DNA from: Bacteroidota bacterium
GTDB lineage: Bacteria > Bacteroidota > Rhodothermia > Rhodothermales > Rubricoccaceae
Direction of reading: 5' to 3'
DNA length: 32,109 nt
Assembly: GCA_022561755.1 (NCBI GenBank)
Contig: JADFQN010000016.1
Coordinates: forward strand, 1-32,109
Part shown: positions 4,161-31,419 of the stretch, in pieces
How the letters are laid out: every line of letters begins with the position of its first letter
Numbering within the stretch: the first letter of the stretch is position 1
Notes under the pieces: model-generated
What the model was told of the DNA's origin: nothing
Databases searched by the model: none
The model's input: only the letters and a program-made list of their open reading frames with translations
Position numbers and translations under genes: made by a program

Positions 4161-4250
4161 GTACAACGTCAGCAATCACCGGGCCGCGACGAGTGATTGT
4201 CCATTTGGAAACGCCCGGCTTCGCGGCTCCGGTGCATTGCATTGTTATGC
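4161..4250 (-). repeat. attC site of the TIR cassette (last in array)
   Basis: Read on the - strand it starts with GCATAAC and ends with GTTGTAC. Inside, GCAATGCACCGGAGCCGCGA pairs with TCGCGGCCCGGTGATTGC, leaving one unpaired G and one unpaired A on the first arm. Extrahelical bases on one arm are the hallmark that lets the integrase choose the bottom strand. Length 90 bases. Confidence 0.85.
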
Positions 4251-5022: not shown

Positions 5023-5037
5023 AGATGTTCTTCAGGG

Positions 5038-5107
5038 GCATAACGGGGTCGCGGTTAAGCGTCACTTCCCAGATGGGAAGGTGTACGGCTTCAACCGCTG
5101 GTTATGA
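5038..5107 (-). repeat. attC of the distal ORF-less cassette
   Basis: On the - strand it runs from TCATAAC to GTTATGC over 70 bases. GCGGTTGAAGCCGT pairs with ACGCTTAACCGC, leaving an unpaired G and C on one arm, and the tip is the small hairpin TTCCCATCTGGGAA. It is the same site as at 7387-7456 apart from the core variant. Confidence 0.85.
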
Positions 5108-5271
5108 GTCGATTGCGCGAGCAGTGCAGAAAGAGATCCGGCGGCCGGCTGGATGGGCTTGCCTTCAGATCGTGCTTGCGTACTACCGCGCGACTACAAG
5201 ATACAGGAGAGATCCTGAGCCGGAACGCCTAGCCGCGATCCCGTTATGAGCGAGCGAAGCGAGCTCATAAC
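5038..5271 (-). repeat. ORF-less integron cassette, copy A
   Basis: A 234-base cassette bounded by TCATAAC (5265-5271 on +) and GCATAAC (5038-5044 on +), nearly identical to 7387-7620. I see no convincing reading frame shared by the two copies. The attI-proximal end is a palindrome around GAGCGAGCGAAGCGAGCTC, and its ends are mutually inverted (GGTCGCGGTTAAGCG against its reverse complement). It lies directly upstream of the TIR pair, so it may supply a promoter or a non-coding RNA; that is inference. Confidence 0.8.
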
Positions 5272-6682: not shown

Positions 6683-6801
6683 GCATAACGATTGAGTTCA
6701 GCGGTAATGTGAATTTTGGTTCTTTTGTGAAAATAATGTAGCGAAGCGGAATGCACAAAAGAACCAAAATTCACATTGTCCACTGAAACGATTTGTTATA
6801 C
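6683..6801 (-). repeat. attC site, 119 bases, of the acetyltransferase cassette
   Basis: On the - strand it runs from GTATAAC (holding the gene's TAA stop) to GTTATGC. The arms at 6706-6729 and 6754-6777 are perfect 24-base inverted repeats, with a 24-base loop. The outer part pairs imperfectly (TCGTTTCAGTGGAC against CCGCTGAACTCAA). The length and form resemble the long attC sites of chromosomal integrons. Confidence 0.9.
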
Positions 6802-7359: not shown

Positions 7360-7386
7360 CAGCAATCTAAATTATTTTCCTATGAC

Positions 7387-7456
7387 GTATAACGGGGTCG
7401 CGGTTAAGCGTCACTTCCCAGATGGGAAGGTGTACGGCTTCAACCGCTGGTTATGA
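7387..7456 (-). repeat. attC of the proximal ORF-less cassette
   Basis: It has the same 70-base structure as 5038-5107, ending here in GTTATAC on the - strand. The unpaired G and C on one arm are conserved in both copies. Confidence 0.85.
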
Positions 7457-7620
7457 GTCGATTGCGCGAGCAACGCAGAAAGAGATCCGGCGGTCGGTTG
7501 GATGGGCTTGCCTTCAGATCGTGCTTGCGTACTACCTCGCGACTACAAGATACAGGAGAGATCCTGAGCCGGAACGCTTAACCGCGACCCCGCTATGAGC
7601 GAGCGAAGCGAGTTCATAAC
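7387..7620 (-). repeat. ORF-less integron cassette, copy B (first cassette)
   Basis: A 234-base near-duplicate of 5038-5271 with scattered substitutions, placed directly at attI. Its attI-proximal end (CGCTTAACCGCGACCCC then the GAGCGAGCGAAGCGAG palindrome) recurs at about 18264-18324, again fused to an attI-like site. No shared open frame is visible in the copies. Confidence 0.8.
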
Positions 7621-7708
7621 TACTGTTTATACGTCACTGTGACGCATAACACGCAAGAACGGCAAAGGGTAAAAGGTATGTTCACAGCCGTGTAAGGCAT
7701 GGGGCAGA
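7614..7708 (-). other. attI-like recombination site / integron leader
   Basis: The first cassette joins at the core TCATAAC (7614-7620, + strand). The leader then reads TACTGTTTATACGTCACTG and contains a second core-like GCATAAC at 7643-7649. A diverged copy of this leader, still starting core-TACTG, occurs at 14693, 15224 and 18318. It lies between the array and the 5' end of the integrase relic, which is the expected place for attI. A cassette promoter is expected nearby, but I cannot place it. Confidence 0.7.
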
Positions 7709-8013
7709 GTGTTATCAATACCTTGGGCGGATAATGTGCCTGTCGCGTCTGCGAACGTTTTGTTTCACGCAAAGATACTTAACGTGCTCGACAACGTCAG
7801 ACAGAACAAGCCGCCGAAGCTCCTCGGACGAGTTCGCAATGCCTGCCGGACACGTCATCTTAGCCTCCGTACCGAGAAGGCGTACGTAAACTGGGTGCGG
7901 CGGTATGTCCGCTATCAGACGTTCACCCAAGCGAGTTGGACGACACGCATGTACAAGCATTTCTTTCGTATCTCGTCGTAGAGCAGCATGTTGCGGTTTT
8001 CACGCAGAATCAG
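7709..8013 (+). pseudogene. intI: Integron integrase (intI) N-terminal relic, frameshifted
   Basis: The first frame reads KLLGRVRNACRTRHLSLRTE followed by KAYVNWVRRYVRY, the SAM-like N-terminal domain of integron tyrosine integrases. Near 7922 the match moves to another frame and continues HPSELDDTHVQAFLSYLVVE then QHVAVFTQNQA, exactly the next part of the family (an alpha-helical core-binding domain). A one-base indel therefore separates the two halves. The match ends at TQNQA, where the sequence runs into the stop codon of the convergent peroxiredoxin gene. The catalytic domain (R, H, R, Y residues) and the integron-specific insert are missing, so the protein cannot recombine. The true start is uncertain; 7709 is the open-frame limit. 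Confidence 0.85.
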
Positions 8014-8690
8014 GCGTACACCTCGCTCTCAACCACGGGCGCCTTCGTCTTCCGAATGTAAGGCATTACGGATTCCCAGCCGTCGGGGAAGAGCTTCCGC
8101 GCTTCTTCATCCGACACCGACGGGAGTATGAATGCATCGTCACCGCTCTGCCAGTCTGCCGGGGTAGCAAGCTTGTGTCTTGCTGTCAGCTGCAACGAAT
8201 CCAGCACACGCAGGATTTCGGCGAAGTTGCGTCCGGTGCTCATCGGATAAGTAAGAATCAGCTTGATCGTCTTGTCAGGACCAATGATAAAGACCGACCG
8301 GACAGTTGCGTTGGTGGCCGCCGTCCGTCCTTCGGAAGTGCCTTCGGTATCGGCCGGCAGCATGGAATAGAGCTTGGCGACGGATAGGTCGGTATCGCCG
8401 ATCATCGGATAGTTAGGGGCTGTACCCGTGACCTCTTCAATGTCTTTTGCCCACCTTTCATGATCGTCTACGGGGTCAACGCTCAGACCAATAATCTTTG
8501 TATTCCGTTTGTCAAATTCCGGCTTGAGCGTTGCCATGGTCCCAAGCTCCGTGGTGCAGACCGGCGTGAAGTCCTTCGGATGAGAAAACAGCACGGCCCA
8601 ACCATCTCCGATCCATTCGTGAAAACGAATTGTGCCATGGGTCGTTTCGGCCTGGAAATCAGGCGCAGTATCATTGATCGCTAGAGACAT
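8010..8690 (-). CDS. 1-Cys peroxiredoxin (Prx6 family)
   Basis: A 226-residue cytosolic thiol peroxidase that reduces hydrogen peroxide and alkyl hydroperoxides. The peroxidatic site is HPKDFTPVCTTELG with Cys45. The remaining text follows the Prx6 family closely: IGLSVDPVDDHERWAKDIEE, NYPMIGD, RSVFIIGPDKTIKLILTYP, and the C-terminal ATPADWQSGDD region typical of the longer Prx6 class. No resolving cysteine is visible. ATG at 8690 is chosen because the family starts with M-x-L-x-I-N/G-D-x-APDF; an extension to 8759 adds an unrelated stretch. The stop codon lies within the end of the integrase relic, showing that a recombination joined the two. Confidence 0.95.
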   Translation of the reverse strand: MSLAINDTAPDFQAETTHGTIRFHEWIGDGWAVLFSHPKDFTPVCTTELGTMATLKPEFDKRNTKIIGLSVDPVDDHERWAKDIEEVTGTAPNYPMIGDTDLSVAKLYSMLPADTEGTSEGRTAATNATVRSVFIIGPDKTIKLILTYPMSTGRNFAEILRVLDSLQLTARHKLATPADWQSGDDAFILPSVSDEEARKLFPDGWESVMPYIRKTKAPVVESEVYA

Positions 8691-8866
8691 GGATAAACCT
8701 CCATCTCGGTTAAGGTGAATTGAGTGTTCATGACCTCGCCGGCAAGTCATCTGCGACAAGGCGGCTTACGTGAAGGCGAGCGAACGCGCGATATTCAAGA
8801 GTACGGCGCAGCCACGGATGGTGCAAGTAGTTCTTTTGCTTTCTGTTAAGCAAAGCCCGAACCGCG

Positions 8867-8935
8867 CCGCCGCACCTCACCCGCCCGCCGACTATCCGGA
8901 CGAGGGGCGGCGCGAAGCCCGCCACTCCGTGAACG
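8867..8935 (-). repeat. GC-rich dispersed repeat, copy 1
   Basis: Matches the family CCTCACCCGCCCGCCGGCGA / GAGGGGCGGCTCGAAGCC seen at seven intergenic places in this window, here with a diverged middle. It lies between the peroxiredoxin and cupredoxin genes. No frame is conserved through it. Confidence 0.55.
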
Positions 8936-8967: not shown

Positions 8968-9438
8968 TCACGGGGAGATGATGTTGAGCCTCCAACCCAT
9001 AATTAGATGATTAGCGCATTGGTAGAACAGAAGATCCGGCGCTCCGTTCGGCACGACGAACGTCACCGCTTCGTTGCCCGTAGCAAAATTTCCTGTTACA
9101 CCGTCCATCCATTCACCCGCGCCGCCATCTCCGCCAGTCGAACTGGTCGAGATATGGAATGGATGGAGCGCGGGCGTGTTGTTCATCTGGAAAACGTACG
9201 TCTCGCCGCGAACGAGCGTCAATTCGGTTCCTTGCACGTCGTCAACTTCAAAAACCACGGAGTGTGCGTTTGGGTCGGGGTGGTCTGTTTCCGATACCAC
9301 TGCCACCTGAAACGTGGTCGCATTCGGAGTCGCTGACTGTTCATCATCATCAACGGTATCACATCCGAAGGGGAGGCAAAGAACAAAGACGAGTAGAGTG
9401 GCGAACAACTTGCTCGCACGAGTGTCGAGAACTTTCAT
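8968..9438 (-). CDS. Cupredoxin-like lipoprotein
   Basis: A 156-residue exported lipoprotein. The signal segment LFATLLVFVLCLPFGC ends in a lipobox with Cys26, so it should be anchored in a membrane on the periplasmic side. The C-terminal half resembles a type-1 copper fold: strand YVFQMNNTPA, a His-containing LHPFHIS (His92/95), then FYQCANHLIMGW with Cys141, His144 and Met147 in the usual Cys-His-Met copper-ligand spacing. It may carry electrons or bind copper. Neighbours are not in an obvious pathway, although metal genes are common in the window. ATG at 9438 is preferred, since the longer frame from 9501 adds a non-signal sequence. Confidence 0.75.
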   Translation of the reverse strand: MKVLDTRASKLFATLLVFVLCLPFGCDTVDDDEQSATPNATTFQVAVVSETDHPDPNAHSVVFEVDDVQGTELTLVRGETYVFQMNNTPALHPFHISTSSTGGDGGAGEWMDGVTGNFATGNEAVTFVVPNGAPDLLFYQCANHLIMGWRLNIISP

Positions 9439-9547
9439 CTGGATTTGAATGGAGTGACTGGCCCAGGGTTGAGCCATGCATGCCGAACATAGGGGGATCA
9501 TTCAGGCGACAATCTCACGGATCTGTTACGCCGGCCCTGGGGCGCTC

Positions 9548-9620
9548 GTTTGTGCCCTCCCGCCACCGACCCGAACGAGGGACGGCTCGATGCCCTCGGC
9601 CTCCCATTCATAGCTCACTT
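9548..9620 (-). repeat. GC-rich dispersed repeat, copy 2 (diverged)
   Basis: Carries CGAACGAGGGACGGCTCGA and CCCTCGGCCTCCCATTCAT, matching the family at 12280 and 16137. It lies between the DUF4365-like gene's stop and the start of the cupredoxin gene (both on - strand). Confidence 0.5.
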
Positions 9621-12250: not shown

Positions 12251-12279
12251 CGTTTCGAGGAGCTCGATAACGCAATAGA

Positions 12280-12362
12280 CCGCGCCGCCGCGCCTCGCCC
12301 GCCGGCGGGCGAGGCGCGGCTCGAAGCCCTCGGCCATCCACTTTCAGAGCAAGAGCACCTAT
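12280..12362 (-). repeat. GC-rich dispersed repeat, copy 3, with a 34-base perfect palindrome
   Basis: Positions 12287-12320 read the same on both strands, centred on GCCCGCCGGCGGGC. This continues into the family segment CTCGAAGCCCTCGGCCATCC and then AGAGCAAGAGCACC, the degenerate end of a T9SS tail (VLLL.). Other copies have the same order but a less perfect palindrome. Confidence 0.8.
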
Positions 12363-12428
12363 AGTGGTCGGGGGCAGGCCTCGCCGGGAGACCTGCCACC
12401 TTGTTGCGACTCAGACTTCGGCCAACGT

Positions 12429-13763
12429 TTACTTCGCCAGTAGCATCGTCCGCACGAAGCTGCCCTGCGGCGTCTCCAGCCGGTAGAGATACGTCCCGCT
12501 TGGTAGGTCGCTCGTGTCGAAGACCACCTCGTGCGCGCCGGCCTCCCGAGTGCCATCGAGGAGCACACGGACTTGTCGGCCCAGCACATCGTAGACGACC
12601 AGTCGAACCTGCGCCGATTCCGGCAAGCCGAAACGAATCGTTGTACTCGGGTTGAACGGGTTCGGGTAGTTGCCCTCCAGAGCGTACTGATCGGGCACCG
12701 CTACCGGCTCGCCCGCACGTAGGTTCGCCGTCCCACTATCGATGGCGTCGATCATAGCCTGGGCAGTGGCGATCAGGTCGTCTGCTTGCGCGTCGGTAAG
12801 GGCGTGGCCGCGCTGCGCTTCGACGAGGAGGATGGAGGCATTGAGCTGGTTGACGGCTGCGATTGTATTGCCGCTTTCAAAGCTCCCTAAGGCATTTTCG
12901 AGGATGGAGACAAGCGAGTTTTCGAGACCCCTGACGAGATCGAGGCCGATGATGTCGGCAATCAGCGCGTCGATAGCCTGCTCGACGCTTAAGACTGATG
13001 ACTCAACCTTGCGGACGCGATGGTTAAGAACCTCCGCAACGAAGAGATTCCCGGAGCCATCCACGAAAACACCAATGGGGTCAGACAGTTGCGCGGTAGT
13101 GGCCAGGATGCCGTCGCCGTTGAAGCCAGCTGTGCCCGTGCCGGCCACCGTGCTGATGAGGCCGGTGGCGCCGTCTACCTTGCGGACGCGATTGTTACTA
13201 AAATCCGCAATGAAGAGATTCCCGGAGCCATCCACGAAAACACCAGCGGGAAGATTCAGTTGTGCGGTAGTGGCCGGGATGCCGTCGCCGTTGAAGCCAG
13301 AGGTGCCCGTGCCGGCCACCGTGCTGATGATACCGGTGACGGCGTCTACCTTGCGGACGCGATGGTTTTCTGAATCCCCAATGAAGAGATTCCCCGAACC
13401 ATCCACGAAAACACCACGGGGAGCAATCAGTTGTGCAGTAGTGGCCGGGATGCCGTCGCCGTTGAAGCCGGGGGTACCCGTGCCGGCCACCGTGCTGATG
13501 ATACCGGTGACGCCGTCTACCTTGCGGACGCGATGGTTGTTAAGCTCTCCAATGAAGAGATTCCTGGAGCCATCCACGAAAACACCAACGGGATTAAACA
13601 ATTGTGCGCTAGTGGCCGGGATGCCGTCTCCGTTAAAGCCAAACGTGCCCGTGCCGGCCACCGTGCTGATGAAGCCGGGCTGGGCAGCGGCCACTGTGGT
13701 CAGGCTCAGCAGCACCGCTAAGAGCGGCAGGGCCAGAGACGTGATCGATAGCTTTGTTTTCAT
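12429..13763 (-). CDS. Secreted NHL-repeat beta-propeller protein with T9SS tail
   Basis: A 444-residue exported protein. ATG at 13763 has GGAGG about ten bases upstream and starts a signal peptide (SLALPLLAVLLSLTTVAAAQ). Four near-identical 57-residue units follow (ISTVAGTG..GFNGDGIPAT, then GVFVDGSGNLFI, NHRVRKVD), each an NHL blade pair of the type found in SMP-30/gluconolactonase-like and teneurin-style propellers. A helical linker (about 250-355) leads to GNYPNPFNPSTTIRFGLPES, VRLVVYDVLGRQVRVLL and SGTYLYRLETPQGSFVRTML, a canonical T9SS sorting tail. The propeller probably binds a ligand at the cell surface; no enzyme residues are evident. The strong DNA-level similarity of the units suggests recent duplication or gene conversion. 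Confidence 0.9.
   Translation of the reverse strand: MKTKLSITSLALPLLAVLLSLTTVAAAQPGFISTVAGTGTFGFNGDGIPATSAQLFNPVGVFVDGSRNLFIGELNNHRVRKVDGVTGIISTVAGTGTPGFNGDGIPATTAQLIAPRGVFVDGSGNLFIGDSENHRVRKVDAVTGIISTVAGTGTSGFNGDGIPATTAQLNLPAGVFVDGSGNLFIADFSNNRVRKVDGATGLISTVAGTGTAGFNGDGILATTAQLSDPIGVFVDGSGNLFVAEVLNHRVRKVESSVLSVEQAIDALIADIIGLDLVRGLENSLVSILENALGSFESGNTIAAVNQLNASILLVEAQRGHALTDAQADDLIATAQAMIDAIDSGTANLRAGEPVAVPDQYALEGNYPNPFNPSTTIRFGLPESAQVRLVVYDVLGRQVRVLLDGTREAGAHEVVFDTSDLPSGTYLYRLETPQGSFVRTMLLAK
13040..13710 (-). repeat. Four tandem 171-bp coding repeats
   Basis: The segment CCGGCCACCGTGCTGATGA recurs at 13141, 13312, 13483 and 13654, exactly 171 bases apart (57 codons). Units are very similar at the DNA level, including synonymous positions, so they are young or homogenised. 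The repeats lie inside the NHL/T9SS gene. Confidence 0.9.
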
Positions 13764-14555: not shown

Positions 14556-14632
14556 GCTGCTCACGCGGCAACGAGCGCGAACTCCGCGTCCTCTACGCCT
14601 CACCCGCCCGCCGGCGACGCACATCCGGGTCA
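14556..14632 (-). repeat. GC-rich dispersed repeat, copy 4
   Basis: Contains CGCGGCAACGAGCGCGAACT, CCGCGTCCTCTACGCCTCAC and CCGCCCGCCGGCGA, shared with 16929-17050; a partial version (CGCAAACTCCGCGTCTTCTACGG) lies at about 14025-14047. A short ATG-started frame on the - strand (MAKKLTR, with an AGGA upstream) enters the repeat from 14645, so the repeat may have cut a gene. Confidence 0.6.
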
Positions 14633-14692
14633 GCTTCTTCGCCATGTATCATTCCTGTTTCCAAATCATCGGGTAAGCGGCAATCCTACGCT

Positions 14693-14780
14693 CCCCAACT
14701 ACTGATTATCCCTCGAGGTGAGGTACAACGCACAGAATCGGCAGGTCGCAACGTACTGTTCACCGCTGCGCTCGGATCTG
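14693..14780 (-). other. attI-like leader copy 2
   Basis: Starts with CCCCAAC then TACTGATTATCCCTCGAGG and continues AGAATCGGCAGGTCGCAAC, closely matching 18318-18400 and less closely the integron attI at 7614. It ends at or next to the stop codon of the 2H phosphoesterase gene (14793). Confidence 0.6.
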
Positions 14781-14792
14781 GTCCGCGTGATG

Positions 14793-15215
14793 TCAGGCAT
14801 TCTTGCAATTCCCGATTGTGAGATGCAAGGGCCATTTTGGTTCGCGAGGAAGCCCGAGCTGTTCGCGATAGTCGAGAGCCTCGGGACAGTCCACTGGCAG
14901 GAAGATGTAGCCGTCCGTTTCCTGCGGCGCCTGTTCATACTCCAGTGTGACCTCCCGGCCCTCTCGGTCGTTCCAATGTTCGAGGTTGGGCGGAGTTTCG
15001 TTTTGGATGATTGATACGTGTGCGCCCCAAAGCGGCTCGCTGATCTTTACGCCGCCCGGGGCCTCTAGCTTGCAAAGATGGCGAAGGTACCGGCCTAAAT
15101 CGCGATCGCACTGAACAATGAGCCACCAGTCCGTTGTGGCCCCATCTCGTCGCACTCGGTTTCCGCCGCTCCCAAGGGCGGGCGCGAACTTGTATGTTCC
15201 AGTGATTTGGGGCAT
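14793..15215 (-). CDS. 2H phosphoesterase-like protein (LigT/CPDase fold)
   Basis: A 140-residue cytosolic protein. The two catalytic H-x-(S/T) motifs of the 2H phosphoesterase superfamily are visible: GAHVSII (His66, Ser68) and LHLTIGN (His131, Thr133). The spacing and small size fit the compact bacterial and phage members that hydrolyse or form 2',3'-cyclic phosphates on RNA or nucleotides. The actual substrate is unknown. The gene behaves like an integron cassette: a GTTAGGC core lies nine bases before the ATG on the same strand, directly joined to an attI-like leader (15224-15302). Another leader copy abuts the stop codon. No clear attC stem is seen after the gene. The frame could extend upstream to 15308 but only through the leader. 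Confidence 0.75.
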   Translation of the reverse strand: MPQITGTYKFAPALGSGGNRVRRDGATTDWWLIVQCDRDLGRYLRHLCKLEAPGGVKISEPLWGAHVSIIQNETPPNLEHWNDREGREVTLEYEQAPQETDGYIFLPVDCPEALDYREQLGLPREPKWPLHLTIGNCKNA

Positions 15216-15223
15216 GTCGGAAT

Positions 15224-15302
15224 GCCTAACTACTGTTTTTTCGTCGAGGTGACGAATGGTGTGCAGCATCGGCAGTGCGCCTCCCCAATATATCCGCTGC
15301 CA
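15224..15302 (-). other. attI-like leader copy 3 joined to the 2H phosphoesterase gene
   Basis: GCCTAAC (15224-15230) is a perfect core, followed by TACTGTTTTTTCGTCGAGG and a shortened leader ending CCTCCCCAATATATCCGCTG. The end segment also closes copy 4 at 18449. On the - strand the core GTTAGGC opens the cassette-like 2H gene. Confidence 0.65.
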
Positions 15303-15343
15303 TGACATCTACAGCTCTCTCTGGGACCTTCGGCCATAAATCC

Positions 15344-15410
15344 CGAGGCCGCACCGTAGCCCCTCACCCGCCCGCTGGCGAACGAGGGCCGGTTCGAAGC
15401 GTTCGACCCC
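15344..15410 (-). repeat. GC-rich dispersed repeat, copy 5
   Basis: Reads GCACCGTAGCCCCTCACC then CGCCCGCTGGCGAACGAGGG, sharing its first half exactly with copy 6 at 16149. Located upstream of the attI-like leader copy 3 and downstream of the pentapeptide gene. Confidence 0.6.
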
Positions 15411-15439
15411 CTGTCCCCGCGCTAGCCAAGGATTGACTA

Positions 15440-16006
15440 CTACTCTGAGACCAATGTCATGCCGGCTCCTGCCGGATCAAAGCCAGGCGGAAACTTAGTA
15501 GCGGGATTGTAGCGGGCGCCGGTTAGAATGGCCGTAGGCAGACCCAAGGCCGTACTCAGGTTGGCCCCAGCTAGGTTAGCCACGTATAAGGTGGCCAAGT
15601 ACAAGTTCGCATCGGTGAGATTGGCCTCGGACAGGTCGGCCCCGGACAGGTCGGCCGCACTCAGCATGGCCCCGGTCAGATCAGCCCGACCCATCTCGGC
15701 AAGCCGCAGGTCGGCTCCACTCAGGCTGGCCCCGGACAGGTCGGCCCGATATAGGTGGGCTCTTCTCAGATCGGACCAATCCAGCCTGGCGCCGGCCAGG
15801 TCGGCCCGGCCCAGATTGGCCCCGAACAGGTTGGTACAAGCCAAATTAGGGGCTTCGCTGATGGGATCCTCTACCGTTCTAAGCCCATTCGGGCACGTCC
15901 ACGTGACATCATCCTGGGCCCAGGCGGGGCCCGCGGGTGCCAGCGCCATCACAACCGCCAGGGCGAGAAGCAGCGCACGCGAAAACGTCAATCCTTTCAT
16001 AGCCAT
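15440..16006 (-). CDS. Exported pentapeptide-repeat protein
   Basis: A 188-residue protein. A signal peptide (FSRALLLALAVVMALAPAGP, then AWAQ) is followed by a short Cys-containing segment (TCPNGLRTVEDP, LACTNL) and about 18 consecutive pentapeptides of the A(D/N)Lxx type, e.g. GANLGRADLAGARLDWSDL and SAADLSGADLSEANL. These should form a right-handed quadrilateral beta-helix. The last ~35 residues (TGARYNPATKFPPGFDPAGA) are the common end of exported pentapeptide proteins. Periplasmic or surface location is inferred from the signal peptide. Function is unknown; a gyrase-protecting role is unlikely for an exported form. It stands alone, with repeat copies on both sides. Confidence 0.9.
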   Translation of the reverse strand: MAMKGLTFSRALLLALAVVMALAPAGPAWAQDDVTWTCPNGLRTVEDPISEAPNLACTNLFGANLGRADLAGARLDWSDLRRAHLYRADLSGASLSGADLRLAEMGRADLTGAMLSAADLSGADLSEANLTDANLYLATLYVANLAGANLSTALGLPTAILTGARYNPATKFPPGFDPAGAGMTLVSE

Positions 16007-16136: not shown

Positions 16137-16264
16137 AGGATCCGAGGCCGCACCGTAGCCCCTCACCCGCCCGCTGGCGATGCCGGGGGTCCGCTCGAAC
16201 CCCTCATTCATCCACTATCGTAGCAACAGCACCTTTTGCGTCGCGTGGACGAGCTGTCCGCCGC
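16137..16264 (-). pseudogene. T9SS tail end fused to GC-rich dispersed repeat, copy 6
   Basis: The - strand frame SGGQLVHATQKVLLLR with a stop at 16215-16217 is the last turn of a T9SS sorting tail; nothing recognisable precedes it. Directly downstream come the family blocks CATTCATCC, CGCTCGAACCCC and CGCCCGCTGGCGA. Similar tail ends precede copies 3 and 7, so the repeat family includes the 3' end of a T9SS gene. Confidence 0.6.
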
Positions 16265-16928: not shown

Positions 16929-17050
16929 GCGCCTCACGCCGCAACGACCACGAACGCCGCGTCTTCAACGGGCAGCGCCTCAACCGCCCGCCGGCGAGCG
17001 AGGGGCGGCTCGAAGCCTCGGCCATCTACTATCGTAGCAAGAGCAGGAAA
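16929..17050 (-). repeat. GC-rich dispersed repeat, copy 7 (fullest copy)
   Basis: Contains all blocks in order on the + strand: CACGCCGCAACGACCACGAA, GCGTCTTCAACGGG, CCGCCCGCCGGCGAGCGAG, GGGCGGCTCGAAGCCTCGGC and TATCGTAGCAAGAGCAGG. The last block is a T9SS tail end on the - strand. It begins about 44 bases after the stop of the beta-propeller gene. Confidence 0.7.
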
Positions 17051-18254: not shown

Positions 18255-18324
18255 GACGCGCCAGATCCTGAGCCGGAACGCTTAACCGCGACTCCGTTAT
18301 GAGCGAGCGAAGCGAGCTCATAGC
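18255..18324 (-). repeat. Truncated ORF-less cassette fragment outside the array
   Basis: AGATCCTGAGCCGGAACGCT, TAACCGCGACTCCG and the GAGCGAGCGAAGCGAGCTCA palindrome match the attI-proximal ~60 bases of the two cassettes at 5038-5271 and 7387-7620. It is joined at TCATAGC to an attI-like leader, as copy B is at 7614. The rest of the cassette, with its attC, is missing. Confidence 0.8.
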
Positions 18325-18470
18325 TACTGATTATCCGTCGAGGTGACGTATAAAGCGCAGAATCGGCAGGTCGCAATGTATTTGTTCACTGCTGTCCTGG
18401 TACGGCGCGTTATCAAAACTTTGTATGGATAAGACGCTTGTATGAGCCTCCCCAATATATCCGCTGCGAT
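18318..18470 (-). other. attI-like leader copy 4
   Basis: TCATAGC followed by TACTGATTATCCGTCGAGG, GACGTATAAAGCGCAGAATC, then TTGTTCACTGCTGTCC and GCGTTATCAAAAC. It aligns along about 120 bases with the leader before the integrase relic (7614-7735), ending in CCTCCCCAATATATCCGCTG as copy 3 does. No integrase sequence follows; the ferredoxin gene does. Confidence 0.7.
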
Positions 18471-18507
18471 GACGACTGCGACCCTGGACGTCCAGCGAGC
18501 CTCGCGC

Positions 18508-27703: not shown

Positions 27704-27741
27704 GGGCCGTCGGGGCTTCGGTTCCGGCGGCCCGTTTTTTT
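27704..27741 (+). terminator. Rho-independent terminator
   Basis: GGGCCGTC pairs with GGCGGCCC (one G-T pair) around a loop of GGGGCTTCGGTTCC-like bases, followed by seven T residues. It is 55 bases after the stop of the exported-protein gene. Confidence 0.85.
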
Positions 27742-27743
27742 AG

Positions 27744-27799
27744 GAGGTTGTTGAATTACGTGCTCCTTCGCAGGCCGGATGACGTTTTTCAACATGGTT
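27744..27799. mobile_element. Degenerate mini-element, family 2
   Basis: GAGGTTGTTGAATTACG at the left and CGTTTTTCAACATGG at the right are diverged inverted repeats of the family at 27985 and 31181. The inside shares TCGCAGGCCGGATGACG with the 27985 copy. It adjoins the terminator's T run. Confidence 0.6.
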
Positions 27800-27817
27800 T
27801 TATAAGCCGCCAATGGG

Positions 27818-27978
27818 ATGTCCCCCTTCAAAAGGGGGACTTCCCGCCGCATGGCGGGAAGGGGGTGGTGTGGCTGGGAGCTGCACCATGATTTCAAACC
27901 CGGATTGCCGACCCCCGCCCGTTCACCTCCTATCCCGGCCTGGGGCCGGGATTCGTCCCCCTAAAACAGGGGGGACAT
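27818..27978. repeat. Inverted-repeat-rich intergenic segment
   Basis: ATGTCCCCCTTCAAAAGGGG then GACTTCCCGCCGCATGGCGG on the left, and CCCGGCCTGGGGCCGGGA then GTCCCCCTAAAACAGGGGGG on the right. Each half is a pair of hairpins and the outer sides are roughly inverted. Repeats of this GGGGGAC type are common between genes in Bacteroidota and other environmental genomes. No coding potential. Confidence 0.6.
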
Positions 27979-27984
27979 TCTTAT

Positions 27985-28036
27985 GAGGCTGTTGAAATAC
28001 TCCGTCGCAGGCCGGATGACGTATTTCAACAGCCTC
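27985..28036. mobile_element. 52-base mini-element, family 2
   Basis: Inverted repeats GAGGCTGTTGAAATACT and CGTATTTCAACAGCCTC (16 of 17 match) flank 18 bases of TCGCAGGCCGGATGA-type sequence. No clear target duplication remains. It lies directly before the UbiA gene and provides an in-frame ATG (27983 or 28016) to it. Confidence 0.75.
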
Positions 28037-28078
28037 TTGGGGGAGGGCGTGGGAGGTACCTTTGAGGCCTCACCCAAT

Positions 28079-31176: not shown

Positions 31177-31344
31177 CTAGGAGGCTGTTGAATTACGTGC
31201 TCTGTCGCCGAGACGAGCGCATCTCGGTTGAGATCGAGGCGCGAGATCACGGTCGAATCGGTGATTCGGCGAGATTCTCGCAACGTGGAGATCAGCCGCG
31301 AGGCGCCGTCACAGGCAAGATGGCGTATTTCAACAGCCTCCTAG
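31177..31344. mobile_element. MITE-like element, family 2, 160 bases, with CTAG target duplication
   Basis: The element (31181-31340) starts GAGGCTGTTGAATTACG and ends CGTATTTCAACAGCCTC, and is flanked by CTAG at 31177-31180 and 31341-31344. The inside has further inverted segments (CGATTCGGCGAGATTC). No reading frame of note. It lies between fecR and the broken receptor gene. Confidence 0.85.
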
Positions 31345-31419
31345 AGGGAGCCCCTTGCGAACCATTGCGTACAGGGTGAGGTTTTTGCAGATGATCATCT
31401 GCTGACGATCTCGTCCTAA

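Follow-up and report, generated by a model that had tools for sequence, protein, structure and literature searches.

A 2H phosphoesterase gene between two attI-like leaders: a probable delta-attI-type cassette in a decayed chromosomal integron

The 2H gene and its flanking leaders

The window, by which we mean the whole 32,109-nt stretch of DNA analysed here, comes from a draft genome of the Rubricoccaceae (GCA_022561755.1; 3.06 Mb, 198 contigs, 88% complete) and carries a gene for a predicted 2H phosphoesterase of 140 aa plus stop codon on the minus strand (15215..14793), set between two copies of a repeat family that we call leaders. The features of this part of the window are as follows.

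14699..15229, minus strand: proposed cassette unit, 531 nt, between two G^TT crossover points (core G's at 15230 and 14699), with a sharp boundary
14793..15215, minus strand: 2H phosphoesterase gene, 140 aa; HVS at residues 66-68, HLT at 131-133
15224..15230, minus strand: core GTTAGGC, putative attI R box and cassette start
15225..15280, minus strand: upstream leader (attI-type), with an internal deletion; leader model positions 76-131
15276..15306, minus strand: extension upstream, 94% common to the leader at 18.4 kb
14697..14795, minus strand: downstream leader fragment in place of the attC, 97 nt to the core G at 14699; leader model positions 29-128
14792..14798, minus strand: GCCTGAC across the stop codon, a modest candidate for an inverse-core R'' remnant

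A 171-aa open frame from 15308 reads through the upstream leader, and the Acidobacteria homologue that is 78% identical to the 2H protein begins at the equivalent of 15215. The coding sequence is taken to be 15215..14793 and not the longer frame; the span 14793-15302 given in an earlier, sequence-only reading of this DNA therefore takes in the upstream leader as well. The same reading had placed the gene next to a perfect GTTAGGC joined to a leader copy, and such a core is indeed present (15230-15224, minus strand), closing the upstream leader and forming a GTTRRRY-type upstream edge of the unit; the gene does follow it, with the ATG 8 nt past the core rather than nine. At the other end, the gene was said to stop at the edge of another leader, and the correspondence is exact, the second leader becoming recognisable from 14795, where the stop codon starts. 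The heptamer GTTAGGC alone was rejected as evidence, its 3 occurrences in the window being about what is expected (2.7); leader tail and core joined gave 3 matches in the window and 0 in 100 shuffles. The core that closes the downstream fragment (CAGTAGTTGGGG) reads GTTGGGG and fits GTTRRRY at 6 of its 7 positions.

No obvious attC had been seen after the gene, and a fold scan within 3.2 kb likewise detected none with an inverse core matching GTTAGGC, nor does any of the best attC candidates of the whole window lie in the 2H gene stretch. Lacking an attC fold of its own after the gene, the 2H unit is not a canonical cassette. The attC is thus absent, as had been proposed, yet it has not simply been lost: a second copy of the repeat family, starting from the stop codon and ending, like the first, at G^TT, stands in its place. 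The heptamer GCCTGAC across the stop codon is complementary to GTTAGGC with one G-T pair; since the looser pattern GYYTRRY is frequent in the window (74 occurrences in 64204 window positions), this remnant is suggestive only, and its 7 nt could be due to chance or derive in part from the leader. A search for a sigma-70-like promoter or a terminator at 14600-15500 gave neither.

A short repeat, GGATATATTGGGGAGGCGCA, adjoins leaders at 15276-15306 and 18443-18473 of the window and is found without a leader at G000 C97:479-516 and C193:10005-10024.

A leader family with a fixed 3' end

A sequence model of the leader, built from nine copies that do not include the two flanking the 2H gene, finds 12 copies in the genome: four in the window (7615-7743, 14697-14795, 15225-15280 and 18319-18441), two each on contigs C134 and C139, and one each on C29, C81, C99 and C167. 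The nine copies used to build the model match by construction, which leaves three found independently: the pair flanking the 2H gene (14697-14795, E 2.5e-8; 15225-15280, E 1.7e-5) and the one on C81, whose decayed core excludes it from the 11-copy counts below. The two remaining copies in the window lie as follows.

18319..18441, minus strand: leader copy lying downstream of the gene for a ferredoxin; a partial attC-like repeat comes next
7615..7743, minus strand: leader copy adjoining an integrase remnant, at the head of a cassette array

In the 11 leaders with a readable core, the common sequence ends at G^TT. As far as the G, the copies have a mean pairwise identity of 0.63-0.82; the value is 0.83 over TTA, falls to 0.43 in the next three bases and is 0.25-0.30 further on. 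For the final 10 nt before the crossover it amounts to 0.82, and for positions 7-16 after it to 0.26. Judged from these alignments, the drop at G^TTRRRY has the pattern of a site where differing DNA was joined. The 5' end of the copies, unlike the fixed 3' end, is variable. The contigs that carry leaders match the window in GC content, and their tetranucleotide usage correlates with that of the window at r 0.83-0.92; the Acidobacteria locus and two further genera of the family give only 0.41-0.59, but a contig of the same genus reaches 0.88.

The leader model has no match at E<=0.001 in 147 related genomes, and in nine genomes searched at E<=1 it gave only matches of E 0.04-0.2, in G006 and G001. 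When the ferredoxin gene beside the 18.4 kb leader is compared with its counterpart in G001, similarity stops with the gene and no leader follows; the rest of the neighbourhood differs in G001 too, and this empty-site comparison is therefore weak evidence. The family may have spread through leader-ended circles at secondary sites, through segmental duplication or through another mobile element, each of which could account for it.

As a known RNA family the leader was rejected, there being no Rfam match at gathering scores. A conserved hairpin, TTATCCGTC..GACGGATAA, lies upstream of the core, with 91% of cells paired and one doubly changed position; this count equals that of its shuffles, and the hairpin is therefore not claimed as an RNA structure. 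A palindrome, TTATCCGTCAC-GTGACGGATAA, is found just upstream of the core (for instance in the L022 copy, on C134), one of its positions being altered on both sides in some copies, and may represent an operator or an integrase-binding repeat.

Integrase remnants and attC sites beside the leaders

Broken, divergent pieces of the N-terminal part of an integron integrase adjoin the 7.6 kb and C29 leaders, and by alignment the C99 leader has the same integrase-type upstream sequence; most other copies have no integrase sequence beside them. No integrase match above the family cut-off, and thus no complete one of the kind that marks a functional integron, was found in this 88%-complete genome. Across the 148 genomes searched, integrases were matched in 75 at E<=1e-30 and in 61 above the cut-off, including one of the same genus, and at the level of the order they occur in about half of the sampled genomes. 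Beside the complete integrases of relatives, inspection by eye places a G^TT-ended site in the same position, upstream of and divergent from intI.

On contig C29, a leader is followed by GTTAGCC, a 392-aa gene and, 20 nt past its stop codon, an attC formed by a 66-nt single hairpin running from GGCTAAC to GTTAGAT; the inverse core GGCTAAC matches GTTAGCC exactly, 1227 nt further on. This arrangement is found in L071 4151-5450, and a methyltransferase-like ORF comes after the attC. The window has an array of its own, which begins with the 7.6 kb leader and whose attC sites are at 7387-7456, 6683-6801 and 5038-5107.

7823..8034, plus strand: integron integrase N-terminal remnant in two pieces, TIGR02249 positions 2-73
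7387..7456, minus strand: attC-like site, 70 nt, single hairpin
6683..6801, minus strand: attC site, 119 nt, single hairpin, after an acetyltransferase gene
5038..5107, minus strand: attC site, 70 nt, single hairpin, in the second copy of a 247-nt repeat
4161..4250, minus strand: attC-like candidate, 90 nt, single hairpin

Altogether, an attC lies downstream of 3 of the 11 leaders (7.6 kb, C29 and C99), against 8 of 440 shuffled stretches, the shuffles holding base composition in 300-base blocks, not dinucleotides. These three are exactly the copies with integrase sequence upstream. For two of the eight without a detected attC, the contig ends too soon, after 211 and 635 nt. The scan applies simple rules, and the claims made here rest on unforced folds; one candidate beyond a C134 leader (C134a; GCCTAAC, offset 925) was not counted, being inside an ORF and poorly paired. 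The 247-nt repeat (window 5025-5271 and 7374-7620, 93% identical), which holds an attC-like site, also contains a partial copy of its own end in the opposite sense.

Because integrase N-terminal remnants adjoin leaders, the G^TT boundary is sharp and C29 bears a canonical cassette, the leader family is, as far as sequence comparison can tell, an attI-type site. One could instead regard the leaders as an ordinary dispersed repeat, such as a promoter or a small transposable element, with a coincidental likeness to an integron. The four copies on C134 and C139, which have a variously cut acetyltransferase tail and not integrase upstream, would suit such a repeat, as would the conserved palindrome if it were an operator; the integrase remnants, the attC arrays at three copies, the core and inverse-core match on C29 and the G^TT boundary all speak against it, and we consider it very improbable.

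The four copies with an acetyltransferase tail, which comes from the same acetyltransferase-like gene in each, are located at L072 (C134) 9443-9572 and 13013-13140 and at L073 (C139) 9387-9515 and 12349-12474, and unrelated genes come after them.

Origin and distribution of the 2H gene

The 2H gene is absent from 147 relatives, from 394 other genomes of a phylum sample that overlaps these relatives and from the plasmids searched, and the rest of its own genome holds only a chance-level match. When species genomes were scanned for close relatives, 1 of 22 candidates was confirmed, the 78% identical homologue already mentioned, which is encoded in an Acidobacteria draft genome and adjoins a HigB/HigA-type pair. 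At the DNA level, the two loci can be aligned from AGGCAT, which lies a little within the cassette start, as far as the stop codon, and similarity outside this stretch is weak or nil. No convincing attC follows the Acidobacteria gene: L090 4430-4524 is not claimed as one, its fold having several hairpins, and no attC-like repeat family was found in L090.

The more distant homologues are viral. The link of the gene to phages, proposed earlier, is borne out by homology to 43 phage records, of which nearly all among those listed are large phages (phage G, RaK2, Munch), and to 63 loci in viral contigs; PHROG 12204, a family listed without a function, is another match. The 2H protein is predicted to be a member of a large-phage 2H family. 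One homologue, in an uncultured phage (LR756511.1; L098 1001-1384), has a single in-frame TAG, which suggests a recoded stop codon.

These distributions bear on whether the 2H gene could be an old chromosomal gene, on both sides of which leaders landed later. Leaders do adjoin genes elsewhere, and beyond this nothing was found in favour of such a history. Orthologues at the same place without flanking leaders, named in the sequence-only reading as evidence that would count against capture, are missing from both the relatives and the phylum sample, and the closest match comes from another phylum with the remaining homologues viral, which makes an old chromosomal origin scarcely credible.

Fold and predicted activity of the 2H protein

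The histidine of each of the two H-x-S/T motifs is the same in all of 32 sequences, and the predicted model (mean pLDDT 93, pTM 0.87) places the two motifs in a 2H fold, as in 2H phosphoesterases. A Foldseek search against solved structures returned none at E 0.001; its first row was Acb1 (7t26, E 0.12), and its best rows were Acb1, MHV ns2, LigT and AKAP18, all of which we take to be 2H enzymes. Structural Z scores were 5.9 for CNPase, 5.9 for ns2, 5.8 for Acb1, about level with CNPase, and 5.5 for Usb1; the Pfam 2H-SAK match is below its cut-off. As all Z scores are below 8 and hence modest, it is fold and motifs in combination that support the assignment to the 2H phosphoesterases, which does not extend to a substrate. 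From fold and motifs, the protein probably hydrolyses a phosphodiester, for example a 2',3'-cyclic phosphate or a cyclic nucleotide.

With the phage 2H phosphoesterases (PHROG 12204), among them homologues in phage G, RaK2 and similar phages, and with Acb1, an anti-CBASS nuclease that cleaves cyclic oligonucleotides and a relative of solved fold, the protein shares the two H-x-S/T motifs and the 2H fold. Unlike the phage enzymes, it has a bacterial cassette as its carrier, and in the comparisons made its sequence did not fall into the Acb1 group. PADLOC gave no defence match for the 2H locus. A review of jumbo phages (PMC7824862) ties such enzymes to the clearing of 2',3'-cyclic ends before RNA ligation.

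A delta-attI-type cassette

The 2H unit shows a partial attI in place of an attC directly after the ORF (14697-14795), which is what distinguishes a delta-attI cassette. In class 1 and class 2 integrons, the accessible portion of a published account (PMC12901181) describes cassettes in which a piece of attI, attached at the inverse core, takes the place of the attC; several of these are recombined by IntI1, and in one of the attI-ORF-delta-attI examples the fragment fused at that core comes from attI2 and is 244 nt long. Compared with these cassettes, as presented in that portion (Partridge 2009 as cited there), the 2H unit has the same attI-ORF-delta-attI order, with core-proximal attI sequence replacing the attC, and the same join at the stop codon, at the inverse core. 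It differs from them, within the same limits of the source, in lying in a chromosomal draft genome with a decayed integrase and not in a mobile resistance integron, in its different attI, in the length of its fragment (97 nt against 14-18 nt and 244 nt), in its imperfect downstream core and in being recognised here from sequence alone.

We therefore favour, as the likely explanation, that the 2H gene is a delta-attI-type integron cassette inside a decayed, multi-site chromosomal integron. The earlier suggestion of a cassette captured at a secondary leader, with its attC gone, would then be largely right, the leaders being of attI type. Originally, the gene would have been followed by an attC belonging to it, whose inverse core included the stop codon; IntI would have joined the TTAGGC end of the cassette to the G of the upstream leader, and in a later rearrangement at the inverse core the gene would have become linked to part of a leader. 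As long as there was an active integrase, it could have used the two sites as substrates for excision or insertion of the 531-nt unit, which is now probably immobile unless an integrase sits in the missing part of the genome. Several points count against this explanation: the lack of an integrase above the cut-off, although the genome is 88% complete; a downstream core that departs from GTTRRRY; the possibility that the inverse-core remnant is due to chance; the eight leaders without a detected attC; and the lack of a convincing attC at the Acidobacteria copy.

Deletion of the attC by recombination between leaders, the other route proposed in advance, is not supported, because such an event would remove the 2H gene itself and leave one leader. 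The two flanking leaders also differ, about 50 nt being kept in one and 97 nt in the other.

An accidental juxtaposition would dispense with a working delta-attI cassette altogether, in that an ordinary 2H cassette would have entered at the upstream leader and an unrelated deletion would have removed its attC together with other DNA, ending by chance somewhere inside the next leader. Leader copies are cut at many different 5' points, so that a random join of gene and leader is plausible, and the internal deletion of the upstream leader and the imperfect GTTGGGG core fit such a course as well. We nevertheless judge it unlikely, as the join falls at the stop codon, the usual place of the inverse core, just as in published delta-attI cassettes.

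Cassette arrays without an integrase are termed CALIN. The genome resembles these and sedentary chromosomal integrons in its chromosomal cassette arrays with attC sites and integrase remnants, and differs from them in having about a dozen attI-like sites rather than one. A broader and tentative proposal, to which we give a limited chance of being correct, is that of a distributed integron, in which some dozen attI-type leaders have spread as units ending at the crossover G, with single genes under leaders at many loci, and in which leader-ended cassettes such as the 2H unit are the vehicles that carry a new attI wherever the integrase inserts them. If leader-ended cassettes do transport an attI in this way, an integron could establish further landing sites, whereas integrons are usually pictured with a single attI each; in the part of the literature covered, no chromosome with multiple attI copies was found to be reported. 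Under the favoured delta-attI reading, a cassette type described from mobile resistance integrons occurs here in a chromosomal setting, with a longer fragment and a genome-wide attI family for comparison, and a large-phage gene family is placed in the cassette pool.

Other repeats in the window

A G+C-rich dispersed repeat around CTCACCCGCCCGCYGGCGA, intergenic and often accompanied by a GGCTCGAAGCCCTCGGCC part, has copies at 8856-8894, 12274-12328, 15343-15401, 16142-16180 and 16985-17045. Paired repeats with inverted ends (TGTTGAAT.. and ..TTTCAACA) at 27741-28043 and 31178-31347 are possibly the ends of small transposable elements. Finally, an NHL-repeat protein is encoded at 12862-13674 with four tandem coding repeats of 171 nt, the last three of which are 86-89% alike.
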